A stretch of 42,230 nucleotides of DNA from Thermodesulfobacteriota bacterium (lineage in GTDB: Bacteria > Desulfobacterota > DSM-4660 > Desulfatiglandales > Desulfatiglandaceae). Position numbers and translations under genes: made by a program. The DNA is taken from positions 1-42,230 of the forward strand of contig JAUPKI010000024.1 of assembly GCA_030837545.1 (NCBI GenBank). Reading direction: 5' to 3'. The notes below the pieces were generated by a model, which was not told the DNA's origin, made no database searches, and worked only from the letters and a program-made list of their open reading frames with translations. Of this stretch, positions 17,009 through 27,918 are shown piece after piece (positions within the stretch are counted from its first letter, which is position 1; every line of letters starts with the position of its first letter).

Positions 17009-19171
17009 ATGGGCTCTCCCGAGCAAACGGCCAGCATCCGGCAACTCCCCCGAACCCCTGATCCTGTCCAGGATATCCTGGACAGGACATTCTCTCTTGG
17101 GGAACTCGGGCTGAATGTGGAGGCTGTCGCTGAATACAAGAAGCTCTTTTCTTCCCGGTGTCAGCCAACCAAGATCATCCCCGGACTCGTGACATGTCTC
17201 GCCAAGACAAATTCACCCTCCAGGATCATCCAGAAGATAGAGGAGATGGCCGCTCACTCGGACGTAAGCAGGAGCAGGCTGGCCCAGTTCAGGGGGTGCC
17301 TCGGTGTGGAGATGGAGAAAAGGGGGAACAAGGACCTGGCCCTCGAACTGTACAAAGCCGCCTTGGAAACCGATCCAGACAACAAGCAACTCAAGGAAAA
17401 AATTGATCAGTTAACCCCGAATCTCGCCCTCACATCACGATATGGCTACCTCCTTCAGAACGCCCTGGTGACTGCCGACCAGTTGCAGAAGGCCCTCTCT
17501 CTTTCAAAAAATTCCCACAGAAGCGTCGAATCTATCCTCATAGAGGAGTTCAAAATACGCAAACAAGAGGTGGGAAAATCCCTCTCCCTGTTCTATGGTT
17601 GCCCCTTCAGGACCTTCGATCCCGGGGTCCCCGTTCCCGTAGAACTCATTAGCAGCCTGAAAAAGCCCTTTCTGCTGCACGATATGTGGGTGCCGCTGGG
17701 CTGGAACCAGAACGGCGTGGAGATACTCATCGACGACCCCGGCGATCTTAGAAAAACAGGGCTGATCAGGGGACTGACTAAGACCAAGCGGATCCATTTT
17801 TCCGTGGCGATCAAAGAGGATATCGAGGCCTTCATCCGGTATTTCTTTGATCGAAAGACCGAAGATTCCGTAAAGAAAATGATCGACGAACTCGACCTGA
17901 TCCCGGATATCTCGTTTGAAGAAGACGAAGCAGAAAAAGAGATAAACATGGAGGAGAGCGTCGATGAATCGTCAAGCCAGGTGGTAAGGCTGGTAGACCA
18001 GGTTATTGTGACCGCCCTTCGAAGAAATGCCTCGGATATCCATATTGAACCCTCCCCGGTCACCAGCAAGACCGGGATCCGTTTTCGCTTGGACGGGGTG
18101 TGCCATGAATATCTGCAGGTCCCCAACTCCATGGCAAGAGGGGTCCTGTCCAGATTGAAAATCATGGCCGGCCTCGACATCGCCGAAAGACGGCTTCCCC
18201 AGGACGGCAAGATCAAGTTCAGACGCAAGGGAATCCCCCCCCTTGACCTTCGCCTGGCGACGCTCCCCACAGCAGGCGGACATGAGGATGCGGTATTGCG
18301 TCTCCTCCCGGACTCCGGGGCCTTGAAACTGGGAGACATGGGGCTGAATGAACGGAATATGCGCGTCATGAAGAAGATCCTTGTGCAGCCCTATGGACTC
18401 ATCCTGGTGGTGGGACCCACAGGATCCGGCAAGACCACGACCCTCCATTCGGCCCTGGACCACATTAACAACCCCGGCGTCAAGATATGGACCGCCGAAG
18501 ACCCGGTAGAAATTACGCAGCCGGGGCTGCGGCAGGTAGAGGTCAAACCCAGAATCGGTCTTGACTTTGCAAGGGTCATGAGGGCGTTTCTCCGCGCAGA
18601 CCCCGATGTGATCATGATCGGCGAGATGAGGGACAATGAAACGGCCTCCATCGGAATAGAGGCCTCGCTGACCGGCCACCTCGTCTTCTCCACGCTCCAT
18701 ACCAACAGCGCGCCTGAGACCGTTACCAGGCTCCTCGACATGGGATTGAATGCCCTCAATTTCTCAGACGCCCTCCTTGGGATACTGGCCCAGAGACTGG
18801 TCAGAAAATTATGTTCCAATTGCCGCAAGGCCTACCACCCCTCTTCGGAAGAATTTGAGGAGATCCAGGCAACCTACGGCAGGGAGGCATTCACCCAACT
18901 TGGCATCGAATACACATCCGATCTGATCCTCTATGGCCGTTCCAAATGCGATGCCTGTTCAGGCACAGGCTACAAGGGAAGAATGGGTATTCATGAGCTG
19001 TTAGAGGGCACCCCGGCCATCAAGAAACTCGTAAAAACAGAGGCCCCCACAGACGAAATATTCGAGCAGGCGGTTCAAGAAGATATGACAACCCTGAAAC
19101 AGGATGGGATCAGCAAGGTCCTGTCAGGGCTCACCGACATGGCCGAGGTGCGCAGGGTGTGTATCAGTTGA
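17009..19171 (+). CDS. GspE/PilB-family secretion or pilus assembly ATPase with TPR-like N-terminus
   Basis: GPTGSGKTTTLHSAL Walker A, RAFLRADPDVIMIGEMRD, ASLTGHLVFSTLHTNSAPETVTRL, C-terminal CSNCRKAY...CDACSGTGYKGRMGIHELL zinc motif. Confidence 0.94.
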   Translation: MGSPEQTASIRQLPRTPDPVQDILDRTFSLGELGLNVEAVAEYKKLFSSRCQPTKIIPGLVTCLAKTNSPSRIIQKIEEMAAHSDVSRSRLAQFRGCLGVEMEKRGNKDLALELYKAALETDPDNKQLKEKIDQLTPNLALTSRYGYLLQNALVTADQLQKALSLSKNSHRSVESILIEEFKIRKQEVGKSLSLFYGCPFRTFDPGVPVPVELISSLKKPFLLHDMWVPLGWNQNGVEILIDDPGDLRKTGLIRGLTKTKRIHFSVAIKEDIEAFIRYFFDRKTEDSVKKMIDELDLIPDISFEEDEAEKEINMEESVDESSSQVVRLVDQVIVTALRRNASDIHIEPSPVTSKTGIRFRLDGVCHEYLQVPNSMARGVLSRLKIMAGLDIAERRLPQDGKIKFRRKGIPPLDLRLATLPTAGGHEDAVLRLLPDSGALKLGDMGLNERNMRVMKKILVQPYGLILVVGPTGSGKTTTLHSALDHINNPGVKIWTAEDPVEITQPGLRQVEVKPRIGLDFARVMRAFLRADPDVIMIGEMRDNETASIGIEASLTGHLVFSTLHTNSAPETVTRLLDMGLNALNFSDALLGILAQRLVRKLCSNCRKAYHPSSEEFEEIQATYGREAFTQLGIEYTSDLILYGRSKCDACSGTGYKGRMGIHELLEGTPAIKKLVKTEAPTDEIFEQAVQEDMTTLKQDGISKVLSGLTDMAEVRRVCIS

Positions 19172-19298: not shown

Positions 19299-20117
19299 GT
19301 GGTAGCGATGCCGAAACGGGCACTGGTAGTGGACGACGATTTTTTCTTTGTCGAATTTCTTGGAGAACTCCTTGAAAAAAGGGGATACCAGGTCATAAAG
19401 GCCCATGACGGCAAAGAGGGGTTATTAAAACTTGAGGACGGTCCTTTCGATATCCTGTTCTCCGATCTGATTATGTCCAAGATAGACGGGACTCAATTCA
19501 TCAAGATCGCCCGCAAGAAATTTTCGGACGTTTCCTTTCACATTATCGTTGTATCAGGGAGCGTTGTCGAGCAGATGGATCAGCTTACGGATGCAGAGGT
19601 TGACTGGTTTCTCGCAAAAGGCCCCCTCGAACAAATGGAAGCTCAGATCAACGAACTTCTGGATCAGATGGAAAATGGTGGAGTCATCTCGCCCAAGGAA
19701 GGGAACAAATTTCTGGAGTCTGGCACCCTGTATCCGAGGCAGATTACAAGCGAACTGGTGGATAGACTCAACTTCCACAAGGGCGTCATTGAAAGCATCG
19801 GCTTCGGCATCCTGGTCGTTGACAGAGACGCACGGGTCATCAATGCCACCTTACAGGCCCTCGACATCCTGAATGCGTCTCCCGGAGATACCCTGAACAA
19901 ACATATTACCTCTCTCTTCCCCCGGCAGGAGCGGGCCTATCTGATCGATGCCCTGAAGGCTGTCGCCCAGAATCTGGACCTTAAAAAGGTCCGTCTCAAC
20001 ATCGTCGTCGACGCCAAAATAACTCAGTTGACGGTCTCGCTCTTGAGGGTGGGGAGAGAGATCGCGGGGTGGATCATTGCCATGGAGGAAACTCGCCAAT
20101 GCATCGAACAAGCATAA
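19299..20117 (+). CDS. Response regulator: REC domain plus PAS-like domain
   Basis: ALVVDDDFFFVEFLGELLEKRGYQV...DILFSDLIM...WFLAKGP receiver features, then ESIGFGILVVDRDARVINATLQALDIL PAS-like segment. Confidence 0.88.
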   Translation: MVAMPKRALVVDDDFFFVEFLGELLEKRGYQVIKAHDGKEGLLKLEDGPFDILFSDLIMSKIDGTQFIKIARKKFSDVSFHIIVVSGSVVEQMDQLTDAEVDWFLAKGPLEQMEAQINELLDQMENGGVISPKEGNKFLESGTLYPRQITSELVDRLNFHKGVIESIGFGILVVDRDARVINATLQALDILNASPGDTLNKHITSLFPRQERAYLIDALKAVAQNLDLKKVRLNIVVDAKITQLTVSLLRVGREIAGWIIAMEETRQCIEQA

Positions 20118-21358
20118 AAAACAAGCTCATCCTGAGCTTTCTCGCCCTGCTCCTGATCGTCATGGTGGTTGTAGTCGCCGCTCAGCAGATTACAGACAAC
20201 GTCATTACGGCCCTGGGTGTCTCGGCTGCACTGGCCCTGGCCGCCGGAATCATCTTCGGCGGCATTTTTTCAAGGTCCATTGTGAGACGGCTAAACAGCC
20301 TGAGCAGTGTGGCCAAAGAGATCAGTCATGGGGACCTTTCAAAGGAAATCCCCTTTCTGTCCCAAGACGAAATCCGGGATCTCGAAGAGGTCTTTGCCGC
20401 GATGGTCAGGGATCTGAGGGAAATTATTTCGGAGATAAAGGACGTCTCCACCCGGATCGAAGAGACCGGCAGAAATCTCGGCGTCCAGATAGAAAAGGTC
20501 CTGTCCAGCAGCCGGGAAATCGACGAGTCCGCCCTGGCAATTGCCAAGGGCTCGGAAACGCAAAGCCTCATCGTCCAGAAGACATCTCTCGTCCTCGAGA
20601 AAAGCCTGGAACAGATGGACGAGGCATCTCGACAGTCCGCCCAGACCGTATCCAAGACCACTGACGCGCTGCAAAAGACCGAAGTGGGCGAAGCCAAGGC
20701 CCGCGAGACCCTGCATTACCTGGAAGATGTCCTCAAACAGACGGTGGAGAACGCAGAACCGATATATCGGTTATCCGGCAAGGTGGAAAAGATCAAGATG
20801 GTCATGCGCGTCATCGAAGAACTCTCCCAGAAGACCGATCTCCTTTCCCTAAACGCCTCCATCGAGGCCACCAGGGCCGGGGAAATGGGAAAGGGATTTG
20901 CCCTTGTGGCGAACGAGATACGCAACATGGCAGAAAACTCCAGGAACTCGTCCCATGAGATCCGGGCGGTTGTAGATGATATCTTCGAGGACAACAAGGC
21001 CGTCATCGCGGCCCTCAGGAAGAGCGAGGAGGATATCAACAAGGGCCGCGGGATCATTCACGGCATCGTTGGGACCTTCGGCGAGATGCTTTCCGGGGTC
21101 AAAGAAATCTCGACTGAGGTAAGAGAGGTGGGGGAAATAACCCGAAAGCAGGTAAAAGAGATGAGGGGATTGCTCCACCAGTTCCAGGAACTCTCCAGAC
21201 TGGCACACGAGAATTTTGTATCGACCCAAAAGACGACCATCGGCACGAAAAGCCAGAAAGAGGAAATTATGGAGATCGTCAGGGCGGCCAAGTCATTGAA
21301 TGTCCTGTCCCAGAAAATGATGGAAACTCAGGAGCGATTCAGACTCCGCGGGGCGTAA
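20099..21358 (+). CDS. Methyl-accepting chemotaxis protein lacking a periplasmic sensor
   Basis: Two adjacent hydrophobic segments, HAMP-like region, and signalling tip VIEELSQKTDLLSLNASIEATRAGEMGKGFALVANEIRNMAENS. Confidence 0.93.
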   Translation: MHRTSIKNKLILSFLALLLIVMVVVVAAQQITDNVITALGVSAALALAAGIIFGGIFSRSIVRRLNSLSSVAKEISHGDLSKEIPFLSQDEIRDLEEVFAAMVRDLREIISEIKDVSTRIEETGRNLGVQIEKVLSSSREIDESALAIAKGSETQSLIVQKTSLVLEKSLEQMDEASRQSAQTVSKTTDALQKTEVGEAKARETLHYLEDVLKQTVENAEPIYRLSGKVEKIKMVMRVIEELSQKTDLLSLNASIEATRAGEMGKGFALVANEIRNMAENSRNSSHEIRAVVDDIFEDNKAVIAALRKSEEDINKGRGIIHGIVGTFGEMLSGVKEISTEVREVGEITRKQVKEMRGLLHQFQELSRLAHENFVSTQKTTIGTKSQKEEIMEIVRAAKSLNVLSQKMMETQERFRLRGA

Positions 21359-21361
21359 GAA

Positions 21362-21757
21362 ATGGACTGTTTTGTATTTGAGGCGGCAGGAAAGCACCTG
21401 GGAATTGAGGCCCGATACATCTATCGCATTGCCGACGAGGTGAGGGTGGCCCCTGTTCCCCTTCTCCCCTCCTGCCATGTGGGAATTATCTATTACAGAG
21501 GCGACCTGTTTGATGTTATCGATGCCGGCCGGCTTCTGGGGAAAGAAGGCCGCCTCTCCGACAAACCCTCCTATGTGATCCTCATGAAATGGGATCAGCG
21601 GAAACTGGGTCTGATACCGGAGCGCATTGTGGGGATAACCTGGGTCGAAGATGCGAAGGCCACAGACACGGTCTTCACCAAGGATGGACTCGCCATTCAC
21701 ATGATTACCCCCGAAAAAATCTGGGATACCCTATCGGAACTCCCCTATGGACATTGA
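21362..21757 (+). CDS. CheW-like adaptor protein
   Basis: 131-aa CheW-like fold pattern (FEAAGKHLGIEARYIYRIADEVRVAPVPLLPSCHVGIIYYRGDLFDVIDAGRLLG), lying between MCP and CheA. Confidence 0.85.
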   Translation: MDCFVFEAAGKHLGIEARYIYRIADEVRVAPVPLLPSCHVGIIYYRGDLFDVIDAGRLLGKEGRLSDKPSYVILMKWDQRKLGLIPERIVGITWVEDAKATDTVFTKDGLAIHMITPEKIWDTLSELPYGH

Positions 21758-23309
21758 CAAGTACAAAAGAATCTTCATCCAGGAATCCGGCAAGTATCTC
21801 CAGGACCTGAATACGGACCTCATTCGAGGGGAACATGACCTCCTGAACCGGAGTCTCTGGAGCGACATCCACGGCAAAATCCATTCCATCAAGGGAATGG
21901 CCCGCGCACTCAACCTGGATGCCGTATCCGGGCTGTGCCACTCCATGGAGGGATGGTGCAAGGAGTTTCAAGGGGGAACCATGACGCCTAATGCCGATGC
22001 CGTGCAGGTGCTGATGGACGGGGCAGAGCTGCTTAAGGGGCTGGTGGCGGCGACGGCCGAAGGCGCCGCTCCTGAGGCTTCACCACAGCTCGACAGGATC
22101 AGCGCGCTGCTGGCCCAACGCCCGGATAAGTTGATACCCCAGACACAGCCCGACACACACCCCGTTTCTTCTCCCTCAAAAATCGACCATATCCGCGTTG
22201 AATATTCGCTGATCGAAGAGCTCCTTGCCCGTTCTCAGGAAATCATCCTGCTGGAAAAGACCCTCCCTCCCCTTTCTCAAGAACAGATATCGTCCGGGCT
22301 GAGAGGCTGGATAGACCATTATATGGCCATGTTGAGAGGTCTTCACTTTCAGTTGGCCCGCCTGAGGCTGATGCCCGTCCAGGATTTCGTTTCCCTATTT
22401 GACAAGCCCGTCCGGGACCTGGCCAGGAACTACCATAGGGAGGTCAGGCTTGAGATGGTGGGGGGGGAACTCCAGGTGGATATCGGACTCATGGAGCGTC
22501 TGAGAGAGCCCTTCATGCACCTCTTGCGCAATGCCATTGCCCACGGAATCGAGCTGCCTGACGAACGGGAAAGATCGGGCAAAAACCGGGAGGGCAAGAT
22601 CGTTTTTGAGGCGGACAAACGAGGAGATAGCCTGGTGCTCACTGTAAGCGACGATGGCAGAGGCATCGATCAAACGGCTATTCAGCGCTACCTCAGGGGC
22701 ACGATGGGCATGTCTGATCAAGAGATCAGCGGCATGCCCCGTGAGGAATTCCTCCATACCATCCTCCGTGTCGATTACTCCTCTGCAGACGCTACGAACC
22801 AACTCGCAGGGAGAGGGATCGGGATGGATGTGATCGCAAAGGCCATCCAATACCTGAGCGGTTCCCTCGCCATTCAGTCAGAGCCGCTCGAGGGAACACA
22901 GTTTGTCATTAAGCTCCCCCTCTCTCTTTCCATTGTGTACGCGATCGTCTTTAAGATAGGCCCATACACCCTCTCTGTGCCGACGTCCCATGTCGCGTCG
23001 ATTGAAAGGGCAGAAGCCACATCCGCAGAACAGGGCGGAGATCTTTATGACTTGTGGGACAGACTCGGGATACATCCCGGCACGAGAAAATCGACCCATA
23101 TCCTGAAGCTCAGGCAGCCCCCCGCAATCGACGATTCAATCCCTACGGAACCCCCCCCCTCGCGGTTTGCCGTTGACGCGGTCATCGGCAACATGCCCCT
23201 CATGGTCATGCCCTCGGGGGAACTCCTGGCCCGGACCGGGTCTTTTGCCGGCGTCGGCATCATGGAAAACGGCGACCTGTCGATCCTTCTGGATATGGAA
23301 AAGCTTTAA
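21747..23309 (+). CDS. CheA-like histidine kinase (Hpt, HATPase, CheW-like C-terminus)
   Basis: IHSIKGMARAL Hpt motif, HLLRNAIAHGIELPDER N-box, SDDGRGID G1, AGRGIGMDVI G2. Confidence 0.93.
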   Translation: MDIDKYKRIFIQESGKYLQDLNTDLIRGEHDLLNRSLWSDIHGKIHSIKGMARALNLDAVSGLCHSMEGWCKEFQGGTMTPNADAVQVLMDGAELLKGLVAATAEGAAPEASPQLDRISALLAQRPDKLIPQTQPDTHPVSSPSKIDHIRVEYSLIEELLARSQEIILLEKTLPPLSQEQISSGLRGWIDHYMAMLRGLHFQLARLRLMPVQDFVSLFDKPVRDLARNYHREVRLEMVGGELQVDIGLMERLREPFMHLLRNAIAHGIELPDERERSGKNREGKIVFEADKRGDSLVLTVSDDGRGIDQTAIQRYLRGTMGMSDQEISGMPREEFLHTILRVDYSSADATNQLAGRGIGMDVIAKAIQYLSGSLAIQSEPLEGTQFVIKLPLSLSIVYAIVFKIGPYTLSVPTSHVASIERAEATSAEQGGDLYDLWDRLGIHPGTRKSTHILKLRQPPAIDDSIPTEPPPSRFAVDAVIGNMPLMVMPSGELLARTGSFAGVGIMENGDLSILLDMEKL

Positions 23310-23381: not shown

Positions 23382-24509
23382 ATGGAGCTACAACGACGAG
23401 AGCATCCTGTTTTCATTTGGAATCCGTTTTTTCGAAAGGGTTGGCCAGTCACTGAAAGGGTAGTCCTTCTCGCAATGGCAATTGCTTTCCTCATACCCCT
23501 GTTGTCGCTGGAAAGGCCTGCCGGAGCCGCAGTGTCAATAACCGCAACCCATCAATCTGCTAATGACTTCAGCAATATACCTGCCTCATATTTTACACAG
23601 GTGCGATCAACATTTCACATTTACTATGGCCATACCTCCCACGGAAGCCAGGTGGTCACCGGGCTCAACATGCTCCAAAGCCAGGATTCGGAGCGCTATG
23701 CCATACCTGACATTTACGATGACTACAACATTGATCTGGGAGATCCGGCCTGGGAAACTGATACCCGGAATTATCTCAGCGGCCATCCGGAGACCAACCT
23801 GGTCATGTGGTCCTGGTGCGGGCAATTGTCTAATGAAGACACTGATGTGAGTGATTATTTCAGCAGGATGAATGGCCTCATCAACGACTTTCCAGGCGTT
23901 ACCTTTGTCTACATGACAGGGCATCTGGACGGCGGCGGCACAACAGGGACCCTGTACACGCACAACAACCAGATTCGCGCCTATTGCCATACAAACAACA
24001 AGGTCCTCTTCGATTTTGCCGACATCGAGAGCTATAACCCAGATGGCACCTACTATCCCTATGGCTCGGACTGGTGCGAGTGGTGCACCGACTGGTGTGA
24101 AACCCATAGTTGTCCCAGCTATGGTTGTGAAGATTGCGCCCATTCGCAGTGCTTCAACTGCTACCGGAAAGGAAGGGCCTTCTGGTGGTTGCTGGCAAGG
24201 ATAGCGGGATGGAACCCCTCTGCGACAGTCTTCTACGTCCATCCAAACGGGACCTGCGGGAACAATCATCCCTGCTACACGACCATTCAGGCAGCCATGA
24301 CCGCAGCCGGCGACGGCATCGAGATCAGAGTTGCCGGGAGGACCTTCAACGAGGCCCCGACAAAGGGCACGACCGGCACGGTGACCCTCACCGGGGGGTG
24401 GAACGATGCATTCACAGGACAGACGGGGACAACCGAAATGTACGCACCGGTTGTAACAGGAGGGGCGATCGTAAGGCTGCTGCCTAACATCCGGGTGGTT
24501 GCCCCTTAG
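23382..24509 (+). CDS. Secreted Cys-rich protein, possible SGNH-like domain plus beta-helix start
   Basis: Signal-like N-terminus (VVLLAMAIAFLIPLLSLERPAGAA), GHTSHGSQ and GHLDGGG motifs, Cys-rich WCEWCTDWCETHSCPSYGCEDCAHSQCFNC, then DUF1565-like YVHPNGTCGNNHPCYTTIQAAMTAAGDGIEIRVAG. Confidence 0.75.
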   Translation: MELQRREHPVFIWNPFFRKGWPVTERVVLLAMAIAFLIPLLSLERPAGAAVSITATHQSANDFSNIPASYFTQVRSTFHIYYGHTSHGSQVVTGLNMLQSQDSERYAIPDIYDDYNIDLGDPAWETDTRNYLSGHPETNLVMWSWCGQLSNEDTDVSDYFSRMNGLINDFPGVTFVYMTGHLDGGGTTGTLYTHNNQIRAYCHTNNKVLFDFADIESYNPDGTYYPYGSDWCEWCTDWCETHSCPSYGCEDCAHSQCFNCYRKGRAFWWLLARIAGWNPSATVFYVHPNGTCGNNHPCYTTIQAAMTAAGDGIEIRVAGRTFNEAPTKGTTGTVTLTGGWNDAFTGQTGTTEMYAPVVTGGAIVRLLPNIRVVAP

Positions 24510-24694: not shown

Positions 24695-26239
24695 ATGGCG
24701 CGATATTTGAGAGCAGCTATTCGGTTATCCCTTGTCCTTTCAGTTTTAGTGCCTTCCATCGGCTTTGGCGAGAGGCTTCAGACATCGGATCTCATGTATC
24801 AAGGCGCCTTCCGCCTACCCGAAAATTTCAACTGGGGCGCCCGGGGTCTTTCCTACTATCCCTTAGGAAACAGCGGCGCAGGTTCCTTGCTGGTAACCGG
24901 TTTTGAAGGCCTCACAGGCGGATTCGCCAATTATGGTGAGGTATCCATCCCCACGCCTCAACAGGAAGCCAACTGGGAAGATCTCCCCATGGCAGCATTC
25001 TTGAGGCCCCTGATGCCCTTTGATGGAGGACTTGTGCAGGCGCTCGAAGGAGACTCCGTGTTTGTCTCCGGCATCCAGTATGTACCACGTCAGGGGACCC
25101 AGACGGCAGACAAGATCTACGGGTCACTCAATGAATGGTATCCTGAAGGGGACTTTGGCGATGACTCCTTTCCCACTATCTGGCTCAGCAACTTGAATGG
25201 TTCCAGCGCTCGGGGGCTCTTCTATGTGGGGCCCCAGCCCCAGACCGCACCCTATCATGGCAGAAAGATGGGGGAATATCTCTTTACCGTGCCCCAATCG
25301 TATGCAGACACCTATCTGGGCGGCCGCATTCTCATAACCGGCCGGTCCCGGGGAACGCCGGTCGGTTCGGAACCGGTCACAACCCAGGGCGGTTCTCAAG
25401 GCCCCACCCTGTTCGCCATTGAGCCCTGGCAGATCGATAGTCCGGCGGCCAACGCCAGCATGGACGCTCTTCCCATTCTTTACTACCGGGCCGCTTATCC
25501 AGGCTGTGCAGGACCGGATATCGGGGCAAATGGCGAAAATGTGGACTGTGACTACGAGTTTTCGGATCAGGTGTTTAGGATGTGCGACGCCTGGTCCGGG
25601 GCCGGTTTTGTGGAAAGCGGATCAAAGCGAGCCATCCTCATTCTGGGGCAGAAATCAAGCACCAACTGCTACTACTGCGGCGATCCGGTTGACCCTACTG
25701 GATGCCCCTATGCCACAACCCCGCCGGCGTGCGCCACCTACTGGTGCAATGAAAGCCGGGGGTATCACTGCGGCCCCTATGAACGCCAGGTCATCTTCTA
25801 CGACACGGACGAATTGGGGCAGGCTGCGAAGGGTCTTCGCGATCCATGGACCGTCCTCCCCTATGCCCTCTGGCGTCCCACAACCTTCTATTTACAGGGA
25901 TACACCTGCGGCGATGTGGGCGGCATGGCGGTGGACCCGACCCGTGGACGGGTATTTATGGTCGAAAGGGGCCTAGGAGAAGGGGACATCAATGCCGCGG
26001 CAGTCCATGTCTGGACGGTTAGCGCTTCTTCATGCCCGACCTGCTCCGGTGATGAAGTGACCCTGAACGTAGCGTTCCCTGCGGGAAAGACCTGTGCGTG
26101 CACGGCTAAAACATCCATCACTCTCGGCTCCGGAGTGGTGATCCCCCGCGACGCCACAGTCACTTTCATTGCCCCGCTTGTGACCATCCAGCCCGGCGTC
26201 ACCATTGAAAATGGCGCGGTGGTCCATATCCGCCAATAA
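24695..26239 (+). CDS. Secreted Cys-rich protein of unknown function with shared C-terminal domain
   Basis: Signal-like N-terminus (LRAAIRLSLVLSVLVPSIGFG); NCYYCGDPVDPTGCP...CATYWCNESRGYHCGPYERQ; C-terminal CPTCSGDEVTLNVAFP...GAVVHIRQ. Confidence 0.8.
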   Translation: MARYLRAAIRLSLVLSVLVPSIGFGERLQTSDLMYQGAFRLPENFNWGARGLSYYPLGNSGAGSLLVTGFEGLTGGFANYGEVSIPTPQQEANWEDLPMAAFLRPLMPFDGGLVQALEGDSVFVSGIQYVPRQGTQTADKIYGSLNEWYPEGDFGDDSFPTIWLSNLNGSSARGLFYVGPQPQTAPYHGRKMGEYLFTVPQSYADTYLGGRILITGRSRGTPVGSEPVTTQGGSQGPTLFAIEPWQIDSPAANASMDALPILYYRAAYPGCAGPDIGANGENVDCDYEFSDQVFRMCDAWSGAGFVESGSKRAILILGQKSSTNCYYCGDPVDPTGCPYATTPPACATYWCNESRGYHCGPYERQVIFYDTDELGQAAKGLRDPWTVLPYALWRPTTFYLQGYTCGDVGGMAVDPTRGRVFMVERGLGEGDINAAAVHVWTVSASSCPTCSGDEVTLNVAFPAGKTCACTAKTSITLGSGVVIPRDATVTFIAPLVTIQPGVTIENGAVVHIRQ

Positions 26240-26445
26240 GACCCAAAAATTGTCTCGCACAGAGGCGAAAAGCCACAGAGAAACAGCCAGACCCAAACAC
26301 TGAAAAAGCCGAGGATGCCGCGTTGAGACATTTTTGCAAACCATGACTGCAAAAACAAAAGGCTCTTTGTGTCTTGGTGTCTCCGTGTGAAATACTTCTG
26401 TTTTGTGCTGTGCTCTATTATTGATAACAACAAGCGAGGCGTACG

Positions 26446-27918
26446 ATGAAAAGCGAGCGATTATGCTTGATCTTCGGCATCCTGTTTCTTCTTTTCCCTG
26501 TGCATAGTTACGCTGCCACCTACTATGTGTCGCCTACAGGGAATGATGAATCTGCCGGATCGTCATCCGCTCCCTGGCGCACGCTGCAGCATGCGGCGGA
26601 CAAGGTCATTGCAGGGGACACGGTCATGATCAGAAGCGGCGTCTATGCAGGGTTCAGGGCAAAATCGGGCGGTTCACCCGGACTCGCCATCACCTTCAAA
26701 TCCGAGAGCGGTGCCTCTGTGGTTGTCAACGACACAGGACCCGATGCCTGGCATGGAAGTCTGATCAACATTGAAGGATATAATTGGTGGGTGTTGGACG
26801 GTCTGGAGGTCACTGGAGCACCCGACAATGCGGGCATCGACATCCGCGAGGCGGACCACATTACCGTGCGCAACTGCTACTGCCACCACAACAGGAAATG
26901 GGGCATTTTTACAGGATTTGCCGAATACTTCACCGCCGAATACAATGAGTGCGCCTATTCCACGATAGAGCACGGCATCTATCACAGCAACAGCGGGGAC
27001 AACGCCATCATCCGTTTCAACACCTGCCATCACAACAACGGGTGCGGCATTCAGATCAATGCGGATCCTTCCATGGGAGGCGACGGCATCAGCAGTAATT
27101 GCACGGTTACCCACAATGTTTTGTATGAAAACGGTTTCGGCGGGGGATCGGCGATTAACCTGGCCTCTGTTCGTGACAGCCTGATCGCAAATAACCTGAT
27201 TTACAGCAACCATGCCGGCGGGATCGCTGCGTGGGACGATGATCAGGGGGTTGAGTGGGGCAGCAAAAATAACACGTATTACAACAATACAGTTCATATG
27301 CCCTCAGACGGCCGATGGGCCATCAACCTGAAAAACGGCAGCACCGGGTCCAAGGTCTATAACAACATCCTGATCCATGAAAACGCCGCAAGGGGCGGTC
27401 TTGAGATAGACACATCCAGCCTTGCGGGGTTTTCGAGCGACTACAATATCCTTACGCAGGCCAGCGTGGATGAACTCACCATGAGCCTTTCAGCCTGGCA
27501 AGACAACTATTCGCAGGATGCCCACTCGCTTAGTCAAACAGCAGGCCAGAACTTTGTTTCCCCGGGGAGCGATTATCACTTGCTGGCGACAACCCTGGCT
27601 ATCGATGCAGGAAGCCCCCTTCCCGAGATCACAGACGACCTGGATGGGAATGCAAGGCCCCAGGGTGCAGGCTATGACATCGGGGCCTATGAGTTCGTCG
27701 CCCCCTCTTGCCCACCATGTTCCGAGGATGAGGTGGAGTTAACCAACGTCACATTCCCTACAGGGATACCCTGTGAATGTGTCGGCACCATATCCATCAC
27801 CATCGGTTCCGGCGTGATTATTCCAAACGGCGCCACGGTCATTTTCAGGGCGCCCATAGTAGCAATTAAGCCTGGTGTCAGTATTCAACAAGGGGCCGTA
27901 GTCCACATCAGGCAATAA
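26446..27918 (+). CDS. Secreted right-handed parallel beta-helix protein with shared C-terminal domain
   Basis: TYYVSPTGNDESAGSSSAPWRTLQHAADKVIAGDTVMIRSGVYAG, repeated beta-helix rungs, C-terminal CPPCSEDEVELTNVTFP...GAVVHIRQ. Confidence 0.88.
   Translation: MKSERLCLIFGILFLLFPVHSYAATYYVSPTGNDESAGSSSAPWRTLQHAADKVIAGDTVMIRSGVYAGFRAKSGGSPGLAITFKSESGASVVVNDTGPDAWHGSLINIEGYNWWVLDGLEVTGAPDNAGIDIREADHITVRNCYCHHNRKWGIFTGFAEYFTAEYNECAYSTIEHGIYHSNSGDNAIIRFNTCHHNNGCGIQINADPSMGGDGISSNCTVTHNVLYENGFGGGSAINLASVRDSLIANNLIYSNHAGGIAAWDDDQGVEWGSKNNTYYNNTVHMPSDGRWAINLKNGSTGSKVYNNILIHENAARGGLEIDTSSLAGFSSDYNILTQASVDELTMSLSAWQDNYSQDAHSLSQTAGQNFVSPGSDYHLLATTLAIDAGSPLPEITDDLDGNARPQGAGYDIGAYEFVAPSCPPCSEDEVELTNVTFPTGIPCECVGTISITIGSGVIIPNGATVIFRAPIVAIKPGVSIQQGAVVHIRQ

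Follow-up and report, generated by a model that had tools for sequence, protein, structure and literature searches.

A cysteine-bearing 3-coathanger-type domain at the C-terminus of unrelated exported proteins in Desulfobacterota

Introduction

The closest described systems to the one reported here are the T9SS of Bacteroidota, the PEP-CTERM and LPXTG-type tails, and the 3-coathanger stack domain GCX_COOH, catalogued in NCBIfam as NF045639. T9SS cargo in Prevotella includes proteases, choice-of-anchor J proteins and pectin-lyase beta-helices, and the protease domain of PorU, the T9SS sortase, is gingipain-like (PMC11969387). The NF045639 model spans 49 positions and has a cut-off of 26 bits. 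The domain is named in NCBIfam, but we found no mechanism for it and a literature search for the 3-coathanger domain, GFHAE or GCX_COOH found no paper. We take NF045639 to be mostly a Bacteroidota family, and its name presumably implies a terminal Cys.

Here we analyse two genes from a 42,230-nt stretch of DNA (the window), which corresponds to contig C450 in a draft genome of 4.2 Mb. A sequence-only reading of the window had proposed that two otherwise different secreted proteins share a C-terminus of ~69 residues, that this resembles the 3-coathanger stack with added CxxC and CxC motifs, and that it could serve as a secretion, sorting or anchoring module.

Results

Both open reading frames are present, and BLASTP and profile searches identified the tail that they share. 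The first gene (24695..26239, + strand) encodes a 514-aa protein with a signal-peptide-like N-terminus; its body is without a match in Pfam, in NCBIfam or, by sequence, among solved structures. The second (26446..27918, + strand) encodes a 490-aa exported right-handed beta-helix protein (PF13229, 52 bits against a cut-off of 25.9), which confirms the beta-helix of the sequence-only reading. Putative Sec signal peptides, with boundaries inferred from hydropathy, lie at 24695..24769 (+) in the 514-aa protein, where a 12-residue segment from residue 11 has a mean hydropathy of 2.36 with three K/R ahead of it, and at 26446..26514 (+) in the 490-aa protein, where a 12-residue segment from residue 6 reaches 3.21. 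Comparison of the full proteins yielded one significant match, between residues 444-514 and 419-490, with 46 of 72 positions identical (E 5e-24); all other segments had E ≥ 1.6. Both tails terminate at the stop codon. In the 490-aa protein a choice-of-anchor Q domain (NF041518, 27571..27696, +; residues 376-417; 40.1 bits against a cut-off of 25) stands directly ahead of the tail, which starts at residue 422.

The tails proper are 68 aa (26033..26236, +) and 69 aa (27709..27915, +) long and are 65% identical, with 44 of 68 aligned residues shared; this recount reproduces the 44 identical positions of the sequence-only reading. As DNA the two tails are 66% identical, and the third codon position differs in 24 of the 44 shared residues, so that neither is a recent copy of the other. 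They are either old copies under protein-level constraint or the product of an old exchange. In the tail tree the two are sister sequences (support 96/84), with unrelated bodies.

Each tail begins with a cysteine element and continues as a series of irregular repeats, with the approximate consensus CPxCxGDxVxLxNVTFxxGTxCxCxxxxSITIGxxVxIexGAxVTFxAPxVxIxxGFxAExGAVVxIxQ. In tail 1 the CPxC...CxC element covers 26033..26101 (+) and its cysteines, which are invariant columns in our alignments, are residues 447, 450, 467 and 469 of the 514-aa protein. Both cysteines of the first pair are kept in all 21 copies that have the N-terminal part (three of these read CxxC without the Pro), and CxC is present in 25 of 25 tails. 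The tails finish in VxIxQ, without a terminal Cys. No C-terminal membrane helix was found in the proteins examined: over their last 80 residues the mean hydropathy of 19-residue stretches does not exceed 1.68. We therefore rejected a membrane-helix sorting tail as a candidate.

The best AlphaFold model of the tail, built from four sequences, is all-beta with a pLDDT of 85.4 and a pTM of 0.68, and has strands at 15-18, 27-31, 35-38, 49-53, 56-59 and 70-74. The other tail models were weaker, with pLDDT from 76 down to 42 (five models, 85 to 42). In a two-sequence model of the full 490-aa protein only residues 421-490 were confident, at ~72-86 per block against ~30 elsewhere. The tail is thus predicted to be an autonomous domain that folds by itself, in a model whose body stays near pLDDT 30. 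The shape appears to be a short beta-solenoid, as judged from the one model from four sequences, and disulfides may form among the CPxC and CxC cysteines. Foldseek of the tail against the PDB gave no match (best E 1.2), and against a viral library it gave one unnamed 92-aa protein (E 0.03). A profile built from the seven tails of the window's own genome (A1) had no usable match among PDB sequences.

Using the A1 profile, we found 25 tails in 7 genomes, all of one GTDB family, with up to 7 per genome. The window's own genome (G000) has 7, another species of the same genus (G001) has 6, and the others have 5 (G018), 3 (G069), 2 (G011), 1 (G070) and 1 (G072). The scores were 101-122 bits for the seven own-genome tails, which are the training set of the profile, and 81-107 bits for the complete tails of G001. 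Any match at all was seen in only 8 of 85 genomes of the class, the eighth (G074) carrying a canonical Cys-less relative. Across a phylum-wide sample 3 of 395 genomes matched, all in the window's own family, and a second profile (A2) run against wider genome contigs matched a single genome, the Desulfobacteraceae MAG BH30 (which is G069). The tail-bearing group is therefore deltaproteobacterial and Desulfobacteraceae-like. Close relatives without the tail exist, including G002 of the same genus, in which the profile search found no tail (genome 89% complete); G005 and G017 are further relatives that lack it. A search of plasmids with a hand-made consensus tail gave no match. The tail copies of L020, L024 and L025 occupy very short open frames (64-68 aa); L020 is at a contig end, and L024 and L025 may be broken genes.

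Comparison with NF045639 supports the resemblance to the 3-coathanger stack. Sibling tails score 21-33 bits against this model, several above 26, and the cut-off is passed by tails of three genomes (G000, G001 and G018); one G000 tail alone reaches 27.5 bits. The window tails fall below the cut-off (15.0 bits for tail 1, no match for tail 2), but the A1 profile groups them with the siblings above it, so that they are members by transitive homology. The matches cover tail residues ~28-69, starting at model positions 2-12 and stopping at 40-44, which leaves the invariant cysteines largely outside the model. In the sampled phylum, 3-coathanger matches are rare. L029 (48.3 bits, positions 12-46), a canonical member that lacks the four Cys, comes from a different family within this order, and a Cys-less copy above the cut-off in G069 (L067:254-1460) lies N-terminal to an esterase-like domain, indicating that this fold also occurs away from the C-terminus. 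A weak match in G456 (L051) was set aside, with no convincing tail readable there.

The sequence-only reading had named two outcomes that would count against it: restriction of the tail to paralogues of one protein, and a structure prediction in which the tail packs as part of the upstream fold. The prediction above has the tail folding alone, and across the seven genomes we find it on no fewer than nine unrelated bodies that are predicted to be exported by Sec. Beta-helix bodies with a choice-of-anchor Q domain are the window's 490-aa protein and L043 (NF041518, 36.0 bits), and L030 has a second beta-helix-type body that resembles the window beta-helix protein along its length. The peptidases include Peptidase_C1 proteins with a MAM/choice-of-anchor-J-like domain (L032 and L004; in a C1 peptidase choice-of-anchor J scores 25.5 bits, under its cut-off of 30), a C39-like peptidase (L032) and two kinds of subtilase, S8 (L040; L041/L042). 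One body is a Propeptide_C25 protein in which the C25 catalytic model is unmatched (L035), and another combines NHL repeats with Peptidase_C13 (L037); the NHL cargo body partially matches a family whose members carry PEP-CTERM. The remaining bodies are SBBP beta-propellers (L034/L005), another propeller-like protein (L032), a short YD-type protein (L038) and the unassigned 446-aa body of the window's 514-aa protein. All examined tailed proteins with a complete N-terminus have a signal-peptide-like start, as judged by hydropathy only and not by a trained predictor, and in 21 of 25 cases no more than 2 residues separate the end of the tail from the stop. A single supported clade (95/89) unites six tails from four genera that are borne by C1, C39, C25-propeptide and S8 proteins; because these are four unrelated peptidase classes, tails have moved between unrelated bodies.

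We also observed secreted proteins that consist of little more than the tail, L033:5136-5546 (with an EEPPPPPG end) and L039:6723-7193 (with an EEPPIPPG end), in two genera. A shared histidine kinase (76% identical) lies close to both genes.

Co-occurring genes were examined by all-against-all comparison of neighbouring genes. Neighbours are indeed shared, but only where synteny explains them, and the comparison revealed no receptor, sortase or conserved neighbour beyond synteny. An FKBP isomerase (shared by G000 and G001) and a histidine kinase (shared by G000 and G018) were rejected as partners for this reason.

Several other features lie upstream of the tail genes in the window. A different shared C-terminal module of ~94 aa (24225-24506; ...PCYTTIQAA...GTVTLTGGW...GTTEMYAP...LPNIRVVAP) forms the end of a 375-aa protein (23382-24509) and has six matches in its own genome. 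In the window this module is next to the two tail genes; in G011, likewise, it forms the C-terminus of a protein near a tail-bearing subtilase (L040:10177-12273). Further upstream, 17009-19171 encodes a PilB/GspE-like ATPase (T2SSE, MshEN) whose N-terminal part is TPR-like. Genes for a pilus or a T2SS were not identified beside it; it is followed by a response-regulator-like protein, an MCP and a CheA-like kinase (19299-23309).

Discussion

The presence of one small domain at the end of many different exported proteins suggests, by analogy with known C-terminal signals, an address or retention function. We consider the tail to be probably a portable surface-retention tag. Our full reading, which we judge about as apt to prove right as wrong, is that it is a 3-coathanger variant, stapled by its cysteines, that keeps exported proteins at the cell surface. 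In this mechanism the cargo would be exported by Sec, and in the periplasm the tail would fold to a short beta-solenoid, with disulfides of the CPxC and CxC cysteines stapling its open N-terminal edge. The cargo would then cross the outer membrane, most simply via the T2SS. There the folded tail, neither cleaved nor attached through a lipid, would bind a putative receptor and so hold its proteases, propellers and beta-helix proteins on the cell surface or matrix. The T2SS secretin GspD was found in 13 of 13 genomes tested, so that a route for folded cargo exists; since it is equally present in tail-less relatives, the T2SS is no specific partner of the tail. Of the module proposed by the sequence-only reading, what stands is a portable C-terminal domain on varied exported cargo; neither a partner nor a processing enzyme was found by our searches, and the sorting or anchoring role is plausible by analogy. 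A T9SS-independent surface-sorting pathway of Desulfobacterota, with a dedicated receptor and with the CPxC/CxC thiols used chemically in a disulfide or thioether to a surface partner, seems to us unlikely.

Other explanations account for parts of these observations. The tail could be a ligand-binding or self-associating module, directed at polysaccharide, matrix or itself, that is no sorting signal and for which surface retention is a side effect. The near tail-only secreted proteins are the best argument for such an adhesive or structural role, as they have no cargo to anchor and fit it as well, and the Cys-less G069 member ahead of an esterase-like domain also favours it. However, 21 of 25 Cys-type tails are at the extreme C-terminus, and some stand behind choice-of-anchor domains, where sorting signals are usually found (the Q domains of the 490-aa protein and L043, and the sub-cut-off J domain of a C1 peptidase); we regard the adhesive module as possible but doubtful. 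The spread of tails over four peptidase classes within one clade, together with their small size and their cysteines, would also be expected if the tail were a passive cap, one that aids folding or stability, carries no address and was distributed by recombination. Bodies that differ so much in fold should have no need of one common cap, though, and the NHL body part-matches a family that carries another C-terminal signal, PEP-CTERM, making a cap decidedly unlikely.

The cargo classes, which include proteases, choice-of-anchor J and beta-helix proteins as in the T9SS (PMC11969387), raise the question of a T9SS-type signal that a PorU-like C25 sortase would cleave or exchange at the outer membrane. 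Four tail-bearing draft genomes that are 95-98% complete (G000, G011, G018 and G069) yielded no C25 peptidase, and the same search was positive in four others (G001, G005, G020 and G072). In addition, SprA had no match in 12 genomes, in a search that had no positive control, and the tailed proteins examined (hmmscan, tails and cargo) matched none of the T9SS C-terminal domain models in NCBIfam. Even with the presumed Bacteroidota bias of NF045639 in its favour, we consider a T9SS-type signal very improbable. Genomes that have several tails, with no T9SS-type sortase found in four of them, suggest that the domain can do without that sortase. Finally, the shared tail could reflect plain paralogy, for which the adjacency of the window genes and the sister position of their tails speak, or the tail could be an integral part of the upstream fold. 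Given that the bodies are without similarity, that the tail is on many unrelated bodies and that it is predicted to fold alone, these explanations are scarcely credible.

We therefore return to a retention tag as the preferred reading, for which the case as a 3-coathanger variant is strong and surface retention is inferred. With one 69-aa tag, many cargoes and close relatives that do not have the tag, this is a compact and testable system.

Like the T9SS C-terminal domains of Bacteroidota, the tail is in outline a small all-beta end on varied exported proteases and beta-helix proteins (PMC11969387). With the PEP-CTERM and LPXTG-type tails it shares an upstream choice-of-anchor domain and, in one cargo, a partial match to a PEP-CTERM protein family; unlike them it is all-beta and has no C-terminal transmembrane helix. 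The left-handed beta-helix PF00132 shows a weak likeness (21.9 bits against a cut-off of 27), but the repeats of the tail are irregular, it has four Cys and there is no transferase. The closest relation is to NF045639, with which the tail shares the GFHAE-type core, the C-terminal place and the short beta strands, the last as seen in the all-beta AlphaFold model rather than as the three-coathanger geometry itself. It differs from NF045639 in the CPxC...CxC element and most of the first coil, which precede the model, in matches that stop before model positions 45-49 where the canonical L029 reaches 46, and in ending without the terminal Cys that the name seems to imply. Judged by sequence, the tail is on present evidence no new class but a Cys-bearing variant of a catalogued, apparently unstudied domain.
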